A stretch of DNA of 32,059 bases, from the NCBI GenBank assembly GCA_945860165.1, contig CAMAPL010000025.1, positions 1 to 32,059 of the forward strand, given 5' to 3'. Made by a program: the position numbers and the translations under genes. The notes beneath the pieces were generated by a model, which had not been told where the DNA came from, searched no databases, and was given only the letters and a program-made list of their open reading frames with translations. Shown here piece by piece: positions 20,070 through 27,665 of this stretch. Origin of the DNA: Rhizobium sp. Q54. GTDB lineage: Bacteria > Pseudomonadota > Alphaproteobacteria > Micropepsales > Micropepsaceae. Every line of letters begins with the position of its first letter. Within the stretch, counting starts at the first letter, position 1.

Positions 20070-21545
20070 TTATTCGGGGGACCGCTTGGTGTCGACCTTA
20101 CGGTCCTTCAGCAGCTGGATATAAAAGACCCGCAGCTTCTCAGGTCCCACCCGGTTGACGTAGCTGCCCGGCGAGATGCGCCGTTCATCGACCAAATTCA
20201 GCGCCGCGCCCTTGTCGGCCAGATAGCTAACCACCGCCTCATACTCGGTCGAGGTGCGGTTCTCCACCACCATATGCATGATGCCGCGGCCTTCCTGGGC
20301 CAGGGCGTGGATGTCGGGATCGCGCTCCATCGCGAACTTCAGCGCATCGAGATTGCCGCCGCGCGCCGCGGCCAGTGTCAGGGTCAACCCGTCATCAGCC
20401 TTGGCCTTGGGATCGGCGCCGGCTTCGATCAGCACCTTCATGGCGTCCAGCGAACCGGACTGGGCCGCCAGCAGCAGCGCCGGATTCGGTTTGGCCGGCG
20501 GCGGCAGCAGATATTCGAAGGCTTCCAGCGGGCGGCGCTTGACGCCTTCCGCGTCGGCCTTGGCCGGCTGCTTGGGATTGGCGCTACCCAAAGCGGCGAC
20601 CTGAAACACCTTGCCGTAAATGGGCGAGGGCTGAGTCAGCAGAGCGGTGTACATGACGCCTTTCTGCTGTTCGACCGGCGGCGGCGCAGTCACGGCCCTG
20701 GCGTCACCGCCCTTTGACAGGACAAGCTTGATGAAATCTGCATCGCCGCTGGCGGCGGCGACATGGATCATCTGCCAGCCGCGGGCGTCGCGCGCATTCA
20801 CGTCGGCGCCGCGTTTCACAATATCCATGGCGATGGGAATGTTTTTCACCACCATGGCGGCCTGCACCACCGTGGTGCCGTCGGGCGAGACCGTCTTGGT
20901 GTCGGCGCCCAGATCCAGCAGCTTGGTTGAAGACGCGGTGTCCCGGCTCTGCAGCGCAAAGAAGATCGGCGTCCAGCCATTTTTGGAAGCGGCGTTGACG
21001 TTGGCGCCGTTCTTGGCCAGCACAGCGATATTATCGGTCCGGCCCTTGGCCGCCGCCCACATCAGCGGCGTCTGACCCTGCATGTCGGCCGCATTCACAT
21101 CGGCGCCTTTTGCTATCAGGCCGGCAACCGTTTCGGGCGTGGAGATGCCGGCGCACAGCGCCAGGGCGGAGATGCCGTCCGCGCGCGCCGCTTTTGCGTC
21201 CGCGCCGGATTTCAGAAGGCTGGAGATGATGGCGGGGTTGCCGCCTTCGCAGGCCAGGGTCAGCGGCGTGGCGCCATTGACGTCGGTGACGTTGGGCTTG
21301 GCGCCCGCCCCCAGCAGCAGCAGCATCGTTTCCGCGTCCTGGCGATCAACCGCCCAGGACAGGACGGTCGCATTGTCGGACAGCAGCGCATTCGGATTGG
21401 CGCGATTTTTCAGCGCGCTCTTGATGGCCGCGTGATCGTTATTGCGCACCGCCCCTATCAGACGGTCCTCCTGAGCGCCTGCCCAACCGGGTACCGGCAG
21501 GACAGCGCCAAGAAGCAGAAAACCAAGTCCGAATGCATTTTTCAT
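20070..21545 (-). CDS. Secreted ankyrin-repeat protein, third gene of the cytochrome/HXXSHH operon
   Basis: 491 residues. MKNAFGLGFLLLGAVLPVPGWAGA is a Sec signal. The rest is a solenoid of ankyrin repeats with clear units such as NGATPLTLACEGGNPAIISSLLKSGADAKA, QGQTPLMWAAAKGRTDNIAVLAKNGANVNAA, NGWTPIFFALQ and ARGWQMIHVAAASGDADFIKLVLSKGGDA. Around 280-345 a non-repeat insert (APPPVEQQKGVMYTALLTQPSP... LPPPAKP) separates the repeats into two blocks. Ankyrin solenoids bind other proteins; in the periplasm the natural partner would be one of the two upstream products. It starts 14 bases after the HXXSHH gene stop, so co-transcription is very likely. No catalytic motif is visible. Confidence 0.85.
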   Translation of the reverse strand: MKNAFGLGFLLLGAVLPVPGWAGAQEDRLIGAVRNNDHAAIKSALKNRANPNALLSDNATVLSWAVDRQDAETMLLLLGAGAKPNVTDVNGATPLTLACEGGNPAIISSLLKSGADAKAARADGISALALCAGISTPETVAGLIAKGADVNAADMQGQTPLMWAAAKGRTDNIAVLAKNGANVNAASKNGWTPIFFALQSRDTASSTKLLDLGADTKTVSPDGTTVVQAAMVVKNIPIAMDIVKRGADVNARDARGWQMIHVAAASGDADFIKLVLSKGGDARAVTAPPPVEQQKGVMYTALLTQPSPIYGKVFQVAALGSANPKQPAKADAEGVKRRPLEAFEYLLPPPAKPNPALLLAAQSGSLDAMKVLIEAGADPKAKADDGLTLTLAAARGGNLDALKFAMERDPDIHALAQEGRGIMHMVVENRTSTEYEAVVSYLADKGAALNLVDERRISPGSYVNRVGPEKLRVFYIQLLKDRKVDTKRSPE

Positions 21546-21559
21546 CTGGCGTCCGTAAT

Positions 21560-22906
21560 TTATGCGGTGTATCCGGCGAGGCGGCCGGTGCTGTCGCCTA
21601 GCTTCTCCACCTTCACGTCCAGCTGGTCCATCATGGATAGCATCAGGTTGGTCATGGGCGTGTCCTTCGCCGCGACCAGGTGGCGGCCGCCCTGTGTCAT
21701 GCCGCCCGCAACGATGGTCGGCAGGTTGCGATGGGCGTGCTTGTTGGGGTCCGCCAGGCTGGCGCCGGCCAGCAGCAGCGAATTGTCCAGCAACGTGCCG
21801 TTGCCGTCCTTGGTCTCGCCCATACGCTTCAGATAATAGGCGACCTGGGCCATGTGCAGGGTGTTGATCTTGGTCAGCTTGGCCAGCTTTTCCGGATCGT
21901 TGCCGTGATGGCTCATCGGATGGTGCGCGTCCGGCACGCCGATTTCCGGATAGGAACGACCGCTGACTTCGCGCGCCAGCATCAGGGTGTTGACGCGGGT
22001 CAGGTCGGCCTGCGCCGCCAGTACCATCAGGTCGATCATCATCTGGGCATGGTCGGCGAAATTGTCCGGAATGCCCGAGGGGCGGGTATAGTTGGGCAGG
22101 GCCGCAACATCGGCGCCGCCCTGTTCGATCTTCTGGATGCGGCGCTCGATGTCGCGGACCGAGGTCAGATATTCGTCCAGCTTCTTCCTGTCATTGGCGC
22201 CCATGGTGCCGGCCATGCGGCGGGCATCGTCGGCGACGAAATCCAGGATGCTGGCCTGGCGCTTCAGGCGCATCATACGAGTCTTGGCGTCCAGGCTGTC
22301 GCCGTCGCCAAACAGCCGCTCGAAGATTTCGCGCGGATTGACGGTGACGGGCAGCGGGGTGGACTCGTTGCTCCAGGACAGGGTGTTGGTATAGGCACAG
22401 CTGTAGCCAGTGTCGCAGCTGCCCACCAGGCTGGGAGGCTCCAGGCCCATTTCCAGCGAGGGGATTTGGGTGAATTCGGCGAACTGCTTGGCCACCACCT
22501 GGTCCATCGAAATGCCGTTGGTCAGGTCGGCGCCTTCAGTCTTCTTGACGTGCATGCCGGTCAGGTAAGTGCCGCAGCAGCGGCCGTGATCGCCAGCGCC
22601 GTCGCCCAGGGCTTCGGCCTGGCCATGGTCCAGATTGCTGATGACCTGGAATTTCTCGCGATACGGTTCCAGCGGCTTGAGGATCGGCGTCATCTCATAA
22701 TTCGCGCCTGCCTGGGCCGGAATCCAGTTCTCCATCTGCATGCCGTTGGGGGCATAGATGACGTGCAGCCGCTTGCGGACCTTGGCCGACAGTTCGGCCG
22801 CGACGCTGCTGGCCGGCATCATTGCGTCCATCAGCGGCAGCGCCAGGGCGGCGCCGGTCCCGCGGAGCAAGTTGCGGCGATTCATGGATTTGCGCGTGAT
22901 GATCAT
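21560..22906 (-). CDS. HXXSHH-domain protein (DUF1552), Tat-exported
   Basis: 448 residues. The ATG overlaps the stop of the upstream cytochrome gene by 4 bases (ATGA), which decides the start and implies translational coupling. MNRRNLLRGTGAALALPLMDAMMPASSVAA contains a twin-arginine signal (RR at 10-11). The eponymous motif is HPMSHH (329-334), preceded by EVSGRSYPEIGVPDAHH. Other conserved parts are LHVIYAPNGMQMENWIP, VISNLDHGQAEALGDGAGDHGRCCGTYLTG and the closing LLDNSLLLAGASLADPNKHAHRNLPTIVAGG. The family has no established biochemical function. The overall layout recalls the related DUF1501 proteins, considered alkaline-phosphatase-like. Conserved pairing with PSCyt/PSD proteins suggests a common periplasmic complex. 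Confidence 0.85.
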   Translation of the reverse strand: MIITRKSMNRRNLLRGTGAALALPLMDAMMPASSVAAELSAKVRKRLHVIYAPNGMQMENWIPAQAGANYEMTPILKPLEPYREKFQVISNLDHGQAEALGDGAGDHGRCCGTYLTGMHVKKTEGADLTNGISMDQVVAKQFAEFTQIPSLEMGLEPPSLVGSCDTGYSCAYTNTLSWSNESTPLPVTVNPREIFERLFGDGDSLDAKTRMMRLKRQASILDFVADDARRMAGTMGANDRKKLDEYLTSVRDIERRIQKIEQGGADVAALPNYTRPSGIPDNFADHAQMMIDLMVLAAQADLTRVNTLMLAREVSGRSYPEIGVPDAHHPMSHHGNDPEKLAKLTKINTLHMAQVAYYLKRMGETKDGNGTLLDNSLLLAGASLADPNKHAHRNLPTIVAGGMTQGGRHLVAAKDTPMTNLMLSMMDQLDVKVEKLGDSTGRLAGYTA

Positions 22907-25377
22907 TTCTCGGGTGTCCTTCTCATGACAAAGGGAGCGCTTTGAACGATGGCCATAATGACCGTTTGCATGCGGTAGTTATCCTTGACGGCGGCATCGC
23001 GCACGATGCGGACAGCCGGCATGTCATAGCCTTCCACGCCACGGCCCAGGGCGTAGGTCATCAGCCGCTCGGTGAAGGCTTCGACGAACTGGTCCTTGCG
23101 GGACAGCAGCACGTTCTGAAGGCCCTGCGGACCGGCGAACTTGGTGCCATCCGGCAGCACGGCCGAAACGTCCAGCAGCTTGCCGGCATCGGTGCTGCGC
23201 CAGGCGCCGATGGCGTCGTAATTTTCAAGGCTGAAGCCGAACGGATCCATCTTGGTGTGGCAGGAAGCGCAGATCGCGTTGGTGGCATGTGCCTGCATCT
23301 GTTCGCGCACCGTCATTGCCTTGCCATTCTTCACTTCGGTCAGGGCCGGAATGTCCGGTGGCGGCGGCGGCGGCGGCGCGGCCAGGATATTCTCCAGGAT
23401 CCACTTGCCGCGCAGCACCACCGAGGTGCGGTTGTTGTAGGAGGTGACGGTTAGGATGCTGGCCTGGTTCATAAGGCCGCCATGGCGCTGGGTGGGGTCC
23501 AGCTTCACCTTGCGGAAGGTGGTGCCATAGACGCCGGGCACGCCGTAATGCTCGGCCAGGCGCTGGTTGAGATAGGTGTAGTTGGCATCCAGGAAGTCCA
23601 AGACGCTGCGGTTATCTTTCACCACGCCGTCGAAGAACATCTCGGTTTCCGTCAGCATCGCCGTGCGCAGGCGCTGATCGAAGTTGGGGAACACGCGGCG
23701 GTCGGGGCGCTGGTGCTCCAGCTTGCGCAGATACAGCCACTGGCCGGCGAAATTCGCCGTCAGCGCCTTGGCGCGCTGATCGTTAAGCATCCGCGCGATC
23801 TGCTGCTTCAGCATAGCGGGCCGGCTGAGCTGCCTGCGCTCGGCCACTGCCAGAAGCTGTTCGTCGGGGATCGAGCTCCACAGGAAGAAGGACAAGCGGC
23901 TGGCAAGTTCGATGTCGTTGATACGGTGCACGGAGCCCGGCGCGGCGCCGGCCGGGTCGCGCTCGCGCATGAACAGGAAGCTGGGCGAAACCAGGATGGC
24001 TTCCAGCGCCGCTTCGACACCGTGATCGAAGTCGGCGTCCTTGCGGCCTTCGTTGTACAGCTTCATCAGCGGCGCAACGTCCACCGGCGTCACCGGGCGG
24101 CGATAGGCCTGGCGGGCCAGCGCGGTGAGAATCTTGTTGGCGCAGGCAGTTTCCTGCGCGCCGGATGCCGGACGGCAGACGAAGATCTTGCGGCGGCTGG
24201 GCGTGTCGCCGGGGCCCTTCACGTCATAGGGTCCGGTAATAGAAATCTGCATCACATCGCGCAGGTAGAAATTCTGCTGCATGCCAGGGCCGTTGGCATA
24301 GGACGGCACCGAGATGGTCTGCATCTTCGCGCCGTCCACCCACACATCCATGGGCAGAGGCTGTGCGGGGCCGGTCGGCTTGACGGGGCGCGCGCCGGTG
24401 GTGGTCTTGGGCAGCAGGCTTTCGTCCAGCGCCAGTTGCTTGCGGAACGAGGCGCCGATGGTGCGCAGGCCCGCCTTCAGCGGCATCTTCACTTCATAGC
24501 GGTTGTGGAAGTCGATCTCGTTCTCGGTCTGGGTGCCGGAATTCAGGTAGATCTGGACGGAATAGGTGGCGTCGAGGGGCGCATAGAATTTGAAAGCACC
24601 GCCGCCGCGCGAATCCAGCGGAAGATCGTCGCTGGCCCGCTCGTTATAGGCCGGCACGCCGAAGGCAATCTCGAACAGGTCCCTGGTGAGCTTGTAGTCG
24701 TTGGTGATGACGCGGTGCGAGGTCTGCCCCGTCGCCAGGCGGGCGATCTTGCCGGCCGCGTTCATGTAGCGGTCCATCAGGGTGGGCGAGACGGTGAGGA
24801 TGTCGGCGATATTGTCGAAGCCATAGCCGGTATCGTCGACGGGCAAATCCTTGCTCATATCGACATCCAGGGCGAGAAGATCGCGAACCGCATTGGCGTA
24901 TTCCGCGCGGTTCATGCGCCGAAGCGTGGCGCGGCCGGGATTGGGATTGGCTTCGCCCAGCCTGTCGAGCGAGGATTCCAGCCAGTTGGTGAAATCGGCA
25001 AGCTGTTCCTTGGACGGCCGTTTCATGCCGCGCGGGGGCATCTCGCCCAGACTGATGCGGCGCAGGATTTTTTCCCAGGTGGGATTGTGGACGTCGAGAT
25101 CATCCGCCTTCAGCGGCAGCACGGACATGCCGGCGGTCTTCATCTTGTCGTTGTGGCAACCCGAGCAGTACTGGACCAGCATCTGCTTGCGATCGGCAGG
25201 GGTGGCAGCGGTCTGGGAAACAGACAAGGCGGAGGCGGTGGGAGTCGTGGCGGCTGCCGGCACGGTTTCGGCGGTAGCGGTACCCAGCAGCTGCAAGCCG
25301 ATCACGCCCGTAAGGGCGACGATGCCGGCCGAGGCGAGAATTCTTCCCGATACGCTCCGTTTAGTCATTGGCGACAT
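22903..25377 (-). CDS. Planctomycete-type cytochrome c protein (PSCyt/PSD: DUF1587-1595-1592-1588-1585)
   Basis: 824 residues from ATGTCGCCAATG, preceded by AGGAAAA. MSPMTKRSVSGRILASAGIVALTGVIGLQLLG is an uncleaved anchor or Sec signal. Two haem c sites are visible: CSGCH (71-75) near the N-terminus and CASCH (703-707) near the C-terminus. In order: an N-terminal cytochrome-like part (YCSGCHNDKMKTAGMSVLPLKADDLDVHNP... SLGEMPPRGM), DUF1587 (RATLRRMNRAEYANAVRDLLALD), a carbohydrate-binding-like beta region, DUF1595, DUF1592 (DIELASRLSFFLWSSIPDEQLL), DUF1588 (RHGGLMNQASILTVTSYNNRTSVVLRGKW) and DUF1585 at the end. A periplasmic redox enzyme or electron conduit is implied. No substrate is known for the family. 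First gene of the three-gene operon. Confidence 0.85.
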   Translation of the reverse strand: MSPMTKRSVSGRILASAGIVALTGVIGLQLLGTATAETVPAAATTPTASALSVSQTAATPADRKQMLVQYCSGCHNDKMKTAGMSVLPLKADDLDVHNPTWEKILRRISLGEMPPRGMKRPSKEQLADFTNWLESSLDRLGEANPNPGRATLRRMNRAEYANAVRDLLALDVDMSKDLPVDDTGYGFDNIADILTVSPTLMDRYMNAAGKIARLATGQTSHRVITNDYKLTRDLFEIAFGVPAYNERASDDLPLDSRGGGAFKFYAPLDATYSVQIYLNSGTQTENEIDFHNRYEVKMPLKAGLRTIGASFRKQLALDESLLPKTTTGARPVKPTGPAQPLPMDVWVDGAKMQTISVPSYANGPGMQQNFYLRDVMQISITGPYDVKGPGDTPSRRKIFVCRPASGAQETACANKILTALARQAYRRPVTPVDVAPLMKLYNEGRKDADFDHGVEAALEAILVSPSFLFMRERDPAGAAPGSVHRINDIELASRLSFFLWSSIPDEQLLAVAERRQLSRPAMLKQQIARMLNDQRAKALTANFAGQWLYLRKLEHQRPDRRVFPNFDQRLRTAMLTETEMFFDGVVKDNRSVLDFLDANYTYLNQRLAEHYGVPGVYGTTFRKVKLDPTQRHGGLMNQASILTVTSYNNRTSVVLRGKWILENILAAPPPPPPPDIPALTEVKNGKAMTVREQMQAHATNAICASCHTKMDPFGFSLENYDAIGAWRSTDAGKLLDVSAVLPDGTKFAGPQGLQNVLLSRKDQFVEAFTERLMTYALGRGVEGYDMPAVRIVRDAAVKDNYRMQTVIMAIVQSAPFVMRRTPEK

Positions 25378-25745
25378 TCGTTTTCCTGCCTTCAAAGAAA
25401 CAGGCGGCTGAGCCACCTCGGCGCTGCACTTTCGAAAAAGCGCGGGCAAATTTGAACACCTTGTTAACAGCGCATCCTGCGCATTTCTAGAATTATTCCA
25501 GTGTTGGATCTGGATATCTATAGCATTAAGGCCGACTGGCTTTTAAGTAACCGATTCCCCGAAAAGCCTGACAATTTGCGGCAAATGTTTCTGAGCATTT
25601 GTCATTTATGCTGCGTGCGCGAACTGATTTCGCAATTCGCTGCATCGCAACATAAAGTTGCCCCACGGAACTTCGATGCCAAGCTGGCTTTGCCTGCCAA
25701 ACGAAGGCGAACTGGCTGGCACAGAATCACAGGCGAGAACGGTCC
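25378..25745. promoter_or_regulatory. 368-bp divergent promoter region with palindromes
   Basis: It separates the cytochrome operon (leftward) from the second amidohydrolase (rightward) and is AT-richer than its flanks. It contains GCGCA-TCC-TGCGC (25470-25482), the perfect palindrome ATTTGC-G-GCAAAT (25574-25586) and TTCGCTGCATCGCAA (25636-25650), the last similar to motifs at 1370, 5367 and 27697. A 90-codon frame at 25501 has no ribosome binding site and looks spurious. No exact -35/-10 pair could be fixed. Confidence 0.45.
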
Positions 25746-26672
25746 ATGCACATCCACAGGCGAACAGTTCTGACATCCCTGGGCGCCATGGCGCTGGCCT
25801 CGCCGCTGCGCGCTCAAGAAGCGCCGATATGGAGCGCGCCGGTGCTCGACCTGCATTGGCATATGCGCCGCACGCCCGAGGCCAACCTGGCGCACATGAA
25901 TGGCAGCGGGGTGACCAAGGCTAATCTTCTGACCAACGGCAATGCGGTGGAAAATGTGCGCGCGCTCCAGGCGGGCAATTCAGGGCGCTTCCCCATCTGG
26001 TTCGCGAGCGCCGACATTACCAAGCCCGATGCGGAAGCGCTTTTGACCAGGGCCGTGAAAGACGGCGCCAGCGGTTTTGGCGAAATCAAATTTCCTGTTG
26101 CGGCTGACGGGCCGGAGCTGCGCCGCATGTATGCCCTGGCGGCTGAACTGAACGTGCCAATCATGGTGCATTTCCAGGAAGTGGGGCATACGCCCACCGA
26201 AGGCACGTTCGCAGCGGGGTGGAAACGGTTCGCCGCTATGCTGAAGGCGTTTCCCAAAACTAAATTCATCGGTCATGCCGACGCCTTCTGGGCCAATATC
26301 AGCGCCGACTATGCGGAAGCAGACGCCTATCCCGCCGGTCCGGTGGTGCGCGGCGGCGTTACCGACAGGCTGCTGGCCGATTATCCCAACCTGTTCGGCG
26401 ACATGTCAGCCAATTCCGGCAATAACGGCCTGTCACGCGACGCGGAATTCACCAGGGATTTCCTGCGCCGTCACCAGGGCAAGCTGATGTTCGGCAGCGA
26501 CTGCAATTGCAGTGATGGCAAGGGCAGCAACACCGAGCGCGCCGCGCCGCGCATGCGCGGCAAATGCGTGGCGCGCGAAACGCTGGGCATCTTGGCGGCA
26601 TCGACCACGCCATCGGTGTTCCGCAAACTGGTGTGGGACAATGCCCACACCCTGCTGAAGCTTCCGGCCTGA
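25746..26672 (+). CDS. Tat-exported amidohydrolase-2 family protein
   Basis: 308 residues. MHIHRRTVLTSLGAMALASPLRAQ is a short twin-arginine signal (HRRTVL) with cleavage after AQ. The mature protein opens with VLDLHWHMRR, the HxH metal motif of the amidohydrolase-2 fold. MVHFQEVGH (about 138-146) and KFIGHADAFW give further His ligands, and LMFGSDCNC holds the catalytic Asp. The C-terminal VWDNAHTLLKLP is the usual closing helix. The enzyme is a metal-dependent hydrolase or decarboxylase of a small carboxylate in the periplasm; the substrate is unknown. AGGCGAGAA about ten bases upstream is a weak ribosome binding site. It is divergent from the cytochrome operon and converges on the esterase gene with a 3-base gap. 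Confidence 0.75.
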   Translation: MHIHRRTVLTSLGAMALASPLRAQEAPIWSAPVLDLHWHMRRTPEANLAHMNGSGVTKANLLTNGNAVENVRALQAGNSGRFPIWFASADITKPDAEALLTRAVKDGASGFGEIKFPVAADGPELRRMYALAAELNVPIMVHFQEVGHTPTEGTFAAGWKRFAAMLKAFPKTKFIGHADAFWANISADYAEADAYPAGPVVRGGVTDRLLADYPNLFGDMSANSGNNGLSRDAEFTRDFLRRHQGKLMFGSDCNCSDGKGSNTERAAPRMRGKCVARETLGILAASTTPSVFRKLVWDNAHTLLKLPA

Positions 26673-26675
26673 TAG

Positions 26676-27665
26676 TTATTTGGCGCCGAACATCCAGCGC
26701 ATGACGGACGGCAGCAGCCAGCCGCCATGCACGTCGGAATGGGCGCCATCACCCCATTCGTAGCGCACATCGTAACGCGCGCCCGCGACCTTCTTGATAT
26801 CGGCATTGGCGTTGGCCCATTGCAGCGACGACAGCATCTGCTGGTTGGCGAGGAACCAGCTGCCATGCTCGTTGTTGAGATCGTTGGCGCCATCCTGCAG
26901 GAAAATGCGGATGGGGCGGATCGGGTTTTTGCGGATCAGGCCGGGATAGGTGTCGCCGCCCACGATCACGGGACTGGTGGCGGTCGCCGGACGATAACCG
27001 ATCGACGTATAGCTGCCGATGTAGCTGATGACGTTGCCGAAGGATTCCGGCTTGTTCCACGCCACGGTCCAGGCGCAGATGGCGCCGCTGGAGGTGCCGC
27101 CGATGGCGCGCTTCATGGGATCGCTGGTGAAGGCATATTTCTTGGCGACTTCCGGCAGCATTTCCTCGGTCAGGAAGCGCGCATAGGCGTCGCTGACCGC
27201 GTCATACTCCTGGGCGCGGTTGTTGGGATTTCCAGTGCAGGCATAGCCGGTGCAGCCCACGGGTCCCAGGCCATCGGGATAATGATCGGTGCCCTTGTTG
27301 CCAGGGGTGATGAAGATGCCCAGGGTTGCGGGGATGTCGCCCTTGGCGATCAAATTGTCCAGCACTACCGGAATGTTCAGCGGTCCTTGCGGATTGATGG
27401 CGCGCTGGCCGTCCTGAAACACCAGCAGATTGGGCGGAGTTTTGGCATCGTAATTAGCCGGGACATAGATCCAGTAGCGCCGTACCGTGCCGGCGATGAT
27501 CTGGCTCTTGAATTCCAGTGGCCCGATCAGCTTGCCCTTCTTGACGGCGGGTTGCGGCACCGAATCCTGGGTCGGGGGATATTCGCCCGGCTTGCGCGGC
27601 TCAGCCGCCACAGCCGGTCCGGCCAGAAACGCCAATGTCAATGCACATACTGTCCAGATTTTCAT
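26676..27665 (-). CDS. Exported esterase, enterochelin-esterase/esterase-D-like alpha/beta hydrolase
   Basis: 329 residues. MKIWTVCALTLAFLAGPAVA is a Sec signal. The mature part has the putative-esterase (PF00756-type) pattern: RRYWIYVPANYDAKTPPNLLVFQDG (strand plus oxyanion loop), the nucleophile elbow GTSSG (190-194, Ser192), IRIFLQDGANDLNN for the acid region and GDGAHSDVHGGW with the catalytic His. Family members cleave ferric-enterobactin, feruloyl or other carboxylic esters. GCTGYACTGNPNNRAQEYDAV is an insert seen in the polysaccharide-esterase-like group. It would act in the periplasm. It is transcribed alone; upstream lies TTTGCTGCATTTGGCGAA (27697-27714), a relative of the recurring GCTGCA motif. 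Confidence 0.8.
   Translation of the reverse strand: MKIWTVCALTLAFLAGPAVAAEPRKPGEYPPTQDSVPQPAVKKGKLIGPLEFKSQIIAGTVRRYWIYVPANYDAKTPPNLLVFQDGQRAINPQGPLNIPVVLDNLIAKGDIPATLGIFITPGNKGTDHYPDGLGPVGCTGYACTGNPNNRAQEYDAVSDAYARFLTEEMLPEVAKKYAFTSDPMKRAIGGTSSGAICAWTVAWNKPESFGNVISYIGSYTSIGYRPATATSPVIVGGDTYPGLIRKNPIRPIRIFLQDGANDLNNEHGSWFLANQQMLSSLQWANANADIKKVAGARYDVRYEWGDGAHSDVHGGWLLPSVMRWMFGAK

Follow-up and report, generated by a model that had tools for sequence, protein, structure and literature searches.

Contig CAMAPL010000025.1 of Rhizobium sp. Q54 was analysed over a stretch of 32,059 nucleotides, referred to below as the window. On the minus strand of this window, from position 25377 down to position 20070, lie three consecutive genes. 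In their order of reading, they encode a di-haem protein with PSD and PSCyt3 domains (PSD), a HXXSHH protein, and an ankyrin-repeat protein (ANK), together called the trio in the following:

22903..25377, minus strand: PSD/PSCyt3 di-haem protein, 824 amino acids; Pfam PF07631, PF07627, PF07626, PF07624, PF07637, and PF13442 over cut-off
21560..22906, minus strand: HXXSHH (DUF1552) protein, 448 amino acids; PF07586 with E 3e-107, twin-arginine signal, predicted alkaline-phosphatase-superfamily fold (AlphaFold2 (AF2) model, Foldseek, and VIA)
20070..21545, minus strand: exported ankyrin-repeat protein (ANK), 491 amino acids; PF12796 and further ankyrin models, many repeats

The PSD and HXXSHH reading frames overlap by four bases (ATGA, 22903-22906), and a gap of only 14 bases (21546-21559) separates the HXXSHH gene from the ANK gene. 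The ATGA overlap was found again in 54 of the 71 PSD-HXXSHH junctions measured. The ATG at 25377 is a plausible start for PSD, the alternative being a TTG at 25449, which would add 24 residues. A promoter-like site is present upstream of PSD and on its strand (25520-25492), and constitutes weak evidence, three such sites having been found against 1.1 expected. Judged by eye, PSD and ANK have Sec-type signal sequences and the HXXSHH protein a twin-arginine one, of which the RR pair is kept in 77 of the 78 aligned sequences, the last one having a gap. A first-pass annotation of the same DNA had described a tight three-gene operon with this overlap and this gap, composed of a two-haem PSD/PSCyt protein, a HXXSHH protein exported by twin-arginine translocation (Tat), and an exported ankyrin protein. 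The coordinates are exactly as claimed, and the family assignments agree with the Pfam matches and the two CXXCH motifs of PSD, as do the types of export with the signals just described.

Linkage of the ankyrin gene

The pairing of PSD and HXXSHH genes is already known. According to a 2017 paper (PMC5615132), PSCyt3 genes adjoin a family of uncharacterised genes in Verrucomicrobia, and the functions of the PSD and PSCyt domains are wholly unexplained, a role in carbohydrate metabolism being suggested. The Verrucomicrobia pairs resemble that of the window, and DUF1552 occurs three times in that paper; the text consulted makes no mention of ANK. More generally, no description of a link between HXXSHH and ankyrin genes was found in the open-access literature searched.

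Relatives of the HXXSHH gene were collected by scanning contigs with an alignment of four HXXSHH proteins from the window's own genome, and the best 80 of 462 loci were kept. In 77 of these, a PSD gene lies within 1 kb of the HXXSHH gene, so that the two families are indeed conserved together across phyla, as had been stated in the first-pass annotation. The linkage of ANK in relatives, which the same annotation had named as a point to verify, is also observed: with a broad profile (A3), an ANK gene was found within 6 kb of HXXSHH in 70 of the 80 loci. Three gene orders occur: ANK lies downstream in the same orientation in 51 loci, upstream and divergent in 12, and upstream in the same orientation in 7. 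The count of 70 is not independent, as 56 ANKs from these loci, along with three from the own genome, went into A3; a profile made from only the three own-genome ANKs nevertheless retrieves ANK in 69 of the 80 loci. At one locus (L099), the ANK may instead be the partner of a second HXXSHH gene, which is cut, and among the ten loci lacking ANK some end close to the HXXSHH gene and others do not. According to the record titles, trio loci occur in Alpha- and Gammaproteobacteria, Acidobacteriota, and Hydrogenedentota. The closest records by HXXSHH identity (92 and 93% over the best segment; L025 and L036) are metagenome-assembled genomes (MAGs) labelled Rhizobium sp. Q54 or Alphaproteobacteria bacterium.

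The own assembly (2.48 Mb, 42 contigs) contains six PSD2 and six HXXSHH genes. ANK accompanies three of the six PSD-HXXSHH pairs, namely those of the window, of contig C1, and of contig C14, and is lacking from the pairs of C37 (a contig of 6.6 kb, in which PSD is truncated), C14b, and C9. With three copies in one genome and recurrence across phyla, the arrangement of the trio is beyond chance. Among 61 genomes (the own one, 36 of the genus, and 24 of the class), ANK was detected at E <= 1e-40 in 11, and 15 of the 17 distinct ANK places in those genomes adjoin HXXSHH, the exceptions being an ANK remnant on own-genome contig C9 and a gene on contig C32 of genome G035. In the phylum at large, HXXSHH genes are rare, being present in 6 of 299 genomes, among them the own one.

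The specificity of the link was quantified in 12 genomes picked for holding a trio, with counts also given after removal of the 12 seed loci. The final counts comprise all 96 ANK and 98 HXXSHH rows, pieces of one ANK being merged, and the bit thresholds (340 and 200 for ANK, 289 for HXXSHH) were chosen after the scores had been seen. Of the ANKs scoring at least 340 bits, 41 of 47 lie within 8 kb of HXXSHH (29 of 35 without the seed loci), for about 2.7% expected. Among ANKs of 200 to 340 bits the proportion is 5 of 7, and it drops to 2 of 26 for generic ANKs below 200 bits. Conversely, an ANK lies within 8 kb of 45 of the 61 HXXSHH genes of trio type (at least 289 bits), or of 33 of 49 once the seeds are removed, but of 2 of the 37 remaining HXXSHH matches. 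Eight ANKs of at least 200 bits have no HXXSHH gene within 8 kb, three of which (L166, L169, and L170, the last two on short contigs) adjoin PSD. ANK is, thus, a genuine third member of the trio.

Co-variation in genomes with multiplied trios

In some genomes, the trio is multiplied. The Acidobacteriota MAG G368, from which locus L089 originates, contains at least 15 trios (L196-L210) in several gene orders, as well as at least one further linked site, at place C63, and genome G366 contains six trios. Of those present in the two genomes, 20 linked places (21 trios) were sampled. The PSD frame is broken at L209 and L213, one per genome, and the best long piece was used there; the G368 ANKs at C4 and C77 each contain one stop. 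As paralogues are compared inside one genome, the effect of the species tree is removed.

The distances between paralogues of the three families are correlated throughout. In G368, the Mantel correlations are 0.76 for PSD-HXXSHH, 0.68 for PSD-ANK, and 0.55 for HXXSHH-ANK (p <= 0.0008); in G366, they are 0.93, 0.97, and 0.88, respectively (p <= 0.0054). Partial tests separate the contributions. The correlation between ANK and PSD persists when HXXSHH is taken into account (0.48, p 0.0011 in G368; 0.85, p 0.0016 in G366), as does that between PSD and HXXSHH (0.63, p 0.0004 in G368; 0.64, p 0.026 in G366), whereas none is left between ANK and HXXSHH given PSD (0.07, p 0.34 in G368; -0.18, p 0.74 in G366). 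With equal column numbers, ANK-PSD and ANK-HXXSHH give 0.46 versus 0.13 in G368 and 0.82 versus -0.07 in G366; with 200 columns, the values are 0.42 versus 0.25 and 0.75 versus 0.16.

Taken with the linkage, these data make a partner role for ANK well supported, and the co-variation points to PSD as its cognate partner. The full partial tests tie ANK to PSD rather than to HXXSHH, which makes PSD the probable hub of the trio. Haem binding by ANK itself was considered and set aside, its conserved His and Met resembling, by eye, ordinary ankyrin consensus positions.

The HXXSHH protein

The second protein of the trio belongs to the HXXSHH family: it matches PF07586 with 359 bits, for a cut-off of 30, and possesses the HxxSHH motif. 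The residues that matter most for its interpretation are the following:

21905..21922, minus strand: HXXSHH motif, H329-x-x-S332-H333-H334; H329 and H333 in 78/78 aligned sequences, H334 in 72/78
22586..22588, minus strand: H107, near a helix start (helix 106-114 in the model), at the presumed sulfatase-nucleophile position; 78/78
21737..21739, minus strand: H390, putative metal ligand; 77/78; aligned with the His of the DUF1501 RDH motif in a profile comparison

D374 and R304 are also invariant (78/78). An AF2 model, built from 73 sequences, reaches a mean predicted local distance difference test score (pLDDT) of 82.5. Foldseek relates this model to sulfatases with a probability of 1.00 and gives ten matches at E <= 0.001, nine of them sulfatases or a putative sulfatase, and the tenth the periplasmic domain of YejM. 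VIA aligns it with ENPP7, an ENPP phosphodiesterase (Z 17.1, root-mean-square deviation 3.4 over 245 residues), the sulfatase and ENPP rows being equal in Z. As modelled, the protein has the alkaline-phosphatase/sulfatase superfamily fold.

Hydrolases of the alkaline phosphatase superfamily use Ser, Thr, or Cys (as formylglycine) as the nucleophile, together with Asp and His ligands of a two-metal site, and in the sulfatase motif the Cys lies ten residues ahead of a Gly. In the window protein, H107 stands at a helix start, ten residues ahead of the Gly of an LTG motif. It would, therefore, sit at the place of the nucleophile, as judged from motif spacing and topology rather than by superposition. 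A second line of comparison is offered by the DUF1501 family, to which the HXXSHH protein is similar by profile over 102 columns (probability 97, E 8.8e-11 for a single comparison). In the alignment, the HXXSHH motif coincides with GWDxH of DUF1501, and H390 with the His of the RDH motif of that family. DUF1501 in turn is weakly related to an ENPP-type family around a D-x3-H motif (probability 13.5), a similarity taken as a hint, and no similarity was found in a direct profile comparison of HXXSHH with the ENPP-type family. From the invariant histidines, the DUF1501/ENPP motif comparison, and the position of H107, we infer a His-rich metal site (H107, H390, H329, and H333 or H334) where the nucleophile and the metal ligands normally sit. 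The protein would, thus, be like sulfatases and ENPP phosphodiesterases in overall fold, and unlike them in the putative nucleophile-position His and the His-rich motif.

As a separate observation, the related DUF1501 family (PF07394) is also multiplied in some genomes, with 60 matches in G358 and 38 in G359.

The di-haem protein

The first protein carries PSD4, PSCyt3, PSD3, PSD2, PSD5, and cbb3-type cytochrome c domains over the Pfam cut-offs, and its PSD2-PSD5 and PSCyt3 matches together with CXXCH motifs place it in the PSD/PSCyt3 family. The PF13442 match of its N-terminal part barely passes (27.7 bits, cut-off 27). Conservation was examined in an alignment (A4) of 57 long PSD proteins, that of the window included and the three other own-genome ones of C37, C14b, and C9 omitted. 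Both haem motifs are invariant there:

25153..25167, minus strand: haem motif 1, C71-x-x-C74-H75; C71, C74, and H75 each in 57/57
23257..23271, minus strand: haem motif 2, C703-x-x-C706-H707, in PSCyt3; each in 57/57

M113, in an 'MPP' sequence, and H697 are likewise kept in 57/57. M113 is the likely distal ligand of haem motif 1; the N-terminal part, with its CXXCH and a candidate distal Met, has the marks of a c-type cytochrome.

A sequence search of the PDB with the window PSD gave no match at E <= 1. The AF2 model of this protein (mean pLDDT 84.5), compared as a whole and with no domains folded separately, gave no confident fold match there, and a new fold is not claimed. A beta-sandwich at residues 221-390 resembles galectins and CBM35 at Z about 4 to 5, which is too weak for use.

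Proposed function and alternatives

The operon may code for a redox metalloenzyme of the periplasm, with ANK as a dedicated accessory that assists the haem protein, an interpretation held with somewhat less than even confidence. A periplasmic redox enzyme is the best reading because it combines the hydrolase fold, the presumed His-rich site, the Tat-type signal, the co-translated di-haem protein, and the cytochromes encoded near some trios. The latter come from neighbour families, defined as BLAST clusters of 82 loci (the 80 and two own-genome ones), of which one representative per cluster was scanned with Pfam. In sphingomonads, a cytochrome c′ gene (cluster in 8/80 loci) and a cytochrome b561 gene (cluster in 11/80 loci) follow the trio, the b561 cluster also including a non-sphingomonad locus, L029, with the gene on the opposite strand. 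Proteins of the PF01292 family are membrane cytochromes serving the quinone pool. In the own genome, genes for a cytochrome c′, a cytochrome b561, and a plastocyanin-type protein lie after the C14b pair. A putative oxidative role in the periplasm, as put forward in the first-pass annotation, would agree with the presence of two haems, with the Tat-type signal, and with the sphingomonad c′ and b561 genes.

In the proposed mechanism, a His-rich metal site would replace the Ser, Thr, or formylglycine nucleophile site in the HXXSHH protein, which would acquire its fold and its metal in the cytoplasm before Tat export. The di-haem PSD would exchange electrons with it and relay them to or from the respiratory chain, via cytochrome c′ and b561 where present. 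ANK, as cognate of the di-haem protein, would most likely aid the assembly or stability of PSD, and paralogous trios would act on different substrates. What is observed is the gene order and its conservation, the number of trios, the co-variation in two genomes, the predicted fold, and the invariant residues; that a metal is bound, that electrons pass and in which direction, what ANK does, and that a substrate is oxidised or reduced are the parts of this scheme that we infer. A stronger version appears rather unlikely: it would make HXXSHH proteins a redox branch of the alkaline-phosphatase fold, in which the nucleophile has become the fourth His of an Fe or Cu site, with PSD as di-haem relay, ANK maturing the haem protein, and the paralogous trios, of which fifteen were seen in one genome, forming a separate class of periplasmic enzymes diversified by substrate. 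To our knowledge, no redox branch of this fold is known.

Two known systems are instructive. Ankyrin proteins interact with catalase and promote its activity, as proposed through its proper conformation or by aiding haem binding (PMC10294975, PMC4518328). In the AnkB-catalase pairs of Pseudomonas and Xanthomonas and the Cj1386-KatA pair of Campylobacter, as in the trio, the ankyrin gene lies beside that of a haem enzyme, for whose full activity it is needed, and Pseudomonas AnkB is periplasmic, like the predicted window ANK. In contrast with these pairs, the trio has a c-type di-haem PSD in place of a catalase and includes a co-translated third protein of metal type. ANK is, therefore, proposed to work like the AnkB and Cj1386 helpers, and not to be one of them, since it is encoded beside PSD and HXXSHH and not beside a catalase. 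The other system is Cbp2D of Cellvibrio japonicus, which contains DUF1587 (PSD3) and the cytochrome domain CjX183, the latter reducing lytic polysaccharide monooxygenases (PMC8981238). Like PSD, it is a redox protein that combines a PSD3 domain with a c-type cytochrome, but it differs in architecture, and HXXSHH and ANK are absent from the text consulted.

Several observations weigh against the proposed redox enzyme and its accessory ANK. In the DUF1501 alignment, the Asp and His of GWDxH are matched by S332 and H334 instead of H329 and H333, a shift of one residue, and the predicted convergence of the histidines in space comes from these comparisons and not from distances in the model. The shorter PSDs of C14b and C9 begin downstream of the first haem domain, so that the haem pair is a trait of the long PSD type only. 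Genes for cytochrome c′ or b561 follow the trio in a minority of loci. The ANK at G035:C32 (L174) has neither PSD nor HXXSHH beside it, and 16 of the 61 trio-type HXXSHH genes are without ANK within 8 kb. When PSD is trimmed to 150 columns and compared with full HXXSHH, ANK follows both equally in G368 (0.33 and 0.33), for 0.71 versus 0.22 in G366. Finally, duplication of whole trios, without contact between the proteins, could yield equal co-variation.

The alternative that survives best, although unlikely, is that the HXXSHH protein is a hydrolase of phospho- or sulfo-esters, with H107 as the nucleophile of a variant site, and that PSD is a substrate-binding or redox-sensing partner rather than an electron carrier. 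It would agree with the predominance of sulfatase-type structures among the Foldseek matches (nine of ten, the other being YejM), to which VIA adds ENPP phosphodiesterases, with the invariance of H107 at the presumed nucleophile position, and with the beta-sandwich at PSD 221-390, weakly like galectins and CBM35; the one-residue shift in the DUF1501 alignment also raises its weight. Nevertheless, the Asp-based two-metal motif was not recognised, by eye, among the conserved residues, and haems would be superfluous for a hydrolase, yet both motifs are kept in all 57 long PSDs.

It is also unlikely, and slightly more so, that ANK is a scaffold joining PSD and the HXXSHH protein without any help in assembly or stability. 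Ankyrin solenoids are generic binding proteins, all three genes are tightly linked and co-vary, and the tie obtained in G368 with PSD at 150 columns speaks for a scaffold. Against this, the full partial tests associate ANK with PSD and not with HXXSHH in both genomes, ANK stands beside PSD without HXXSHH at L166 (G366:C383), and some pairs have no ANK, those of own-genome C14b and C9 among them. ANK had been suggested at first to be a scaffold: the partner role it implies stands, but a scaffold is just one of several roles compatible with it, and the co-variation points to the haem protein. A role in assembly or stability is preferred over a pure scaffold because ANK follows the haem protein and because ankyrin proteins that promote catalase offer a precedent.

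A peroxide-defence or stress system, in which PSD would be a peroxidase and ANK a helper of the AnkB type, is improbable. The precedent of AnkB and Cj1386 with haem catalases speaks for it, and PMC2754498 treats an R. baltica gene encoding PSD1 and PSC2 domains in its discussion of the common stress response. However, fifteen diverged trios in one genome look like substrate diversification and not like a single defence task, and no catalase or peroxidase was found among the Pfam-scanned neighbour clusters, which represent a part of all neighbours.

With these results, a long-unexplained PSD/PSCyt family that is multiplied in environmental bacteria becomes testable. Three handles are now available: a third conserved component, a partner fold with a putative metal site, and sphingomonad isolates whose trio is followed by genes for cytochrome c′ and b561, which opens electron flow to genetic testing. 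If the redox reading is true, a fold known for hydrolases would have been converted into a redox enzyme.

Neighbouring genes and other copies

On the other side of PSD, two genes of the window also recur in relatives:

25746..26672, plus strand: exported amidohydrolase (PF04909), divergent from PSD; near the trio in 8/80 loci, all alphaproteobacterial
26676..27665, minus strand: putative esterase (PF00756); near the trio in 10/80 loci, all alphaproteobacterial

They had led to the suggestion that a complex carboxylate or aromatic is oxidised in the periplasm; despite this recurrence, such a route is unsupported and very improbable, as these neighbours are limited to alphaproteobacterial relatives and sugar-acid-type enzymes are encoded elsewhere, in the window (2,5-dioxovalerate dehydrogenase and L-rhamnonate dehydratase, further off and both below cut-off) and near an ANK remnant on C9 (L-rhamnonate dehydratase over cut-off). 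GSDH-type dehydrogenases were found in 4/80 loci, and also after the C14 trio. Genes of an adenosine-deaminase type lie near the trio at L042, L044, L045, L046, L053, and L060, and genes of a NUP type at L042, L049, L054, L058, and L061, both being BLAST clusters with one representative scanned.

A cluster of pyrroloquinoline quinone (PQQ) dehydrogenases lies near the trio in 10/80 loci. A link between PQQ genes and the trio was rejected as evidence: among the 50 of 59 matches listed in G368, one of nine genomes searched, 3 of 15 trios have a PQQ gene within 5 kb, for 2.6 expected, and the numbers are not above chance at 3 kb (3 versus 2.0) or at 10 kb (4 versus 3.9).

At a distance of some 10 kb from the C9 pair lies the fourth ANK of the own genome, from which the first 107 residues and an inner stretch are missing. 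This remnant (G000:C9:24888-25871; L024:989-1972) directly follows a PQQ dehydrogenase and is near the L-rhamnonate dehydratase gene (over the curated cut-off) mentioned above. An ANK-PQQ pair was not retained on this basis, given the degradation of the ANK; it is also undercut by a site of G035 that shares one neighbour and has an intact ANK with a different upstream gene. The intact ANK at L174:7030-8520 of G035 has no adjoining PSD or HXXSHH gene.

Near three own-genome PSD/HXXSHH loci, proteins of about 500 amino acids with ..APW[ST]RGYVV after the signal are encoded (L019:4679-6196, L021:9754-10355, and L023:6754-8235). The L021 protein is cut by the contig end, and the two proteins scanned have no Pfam match. 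The own genome (G000) is also rich in PQQ dehydrogenases, with 37 PF01011 (PQQ propeller) matches in its 2.48 Mb, some of them gene pieces.

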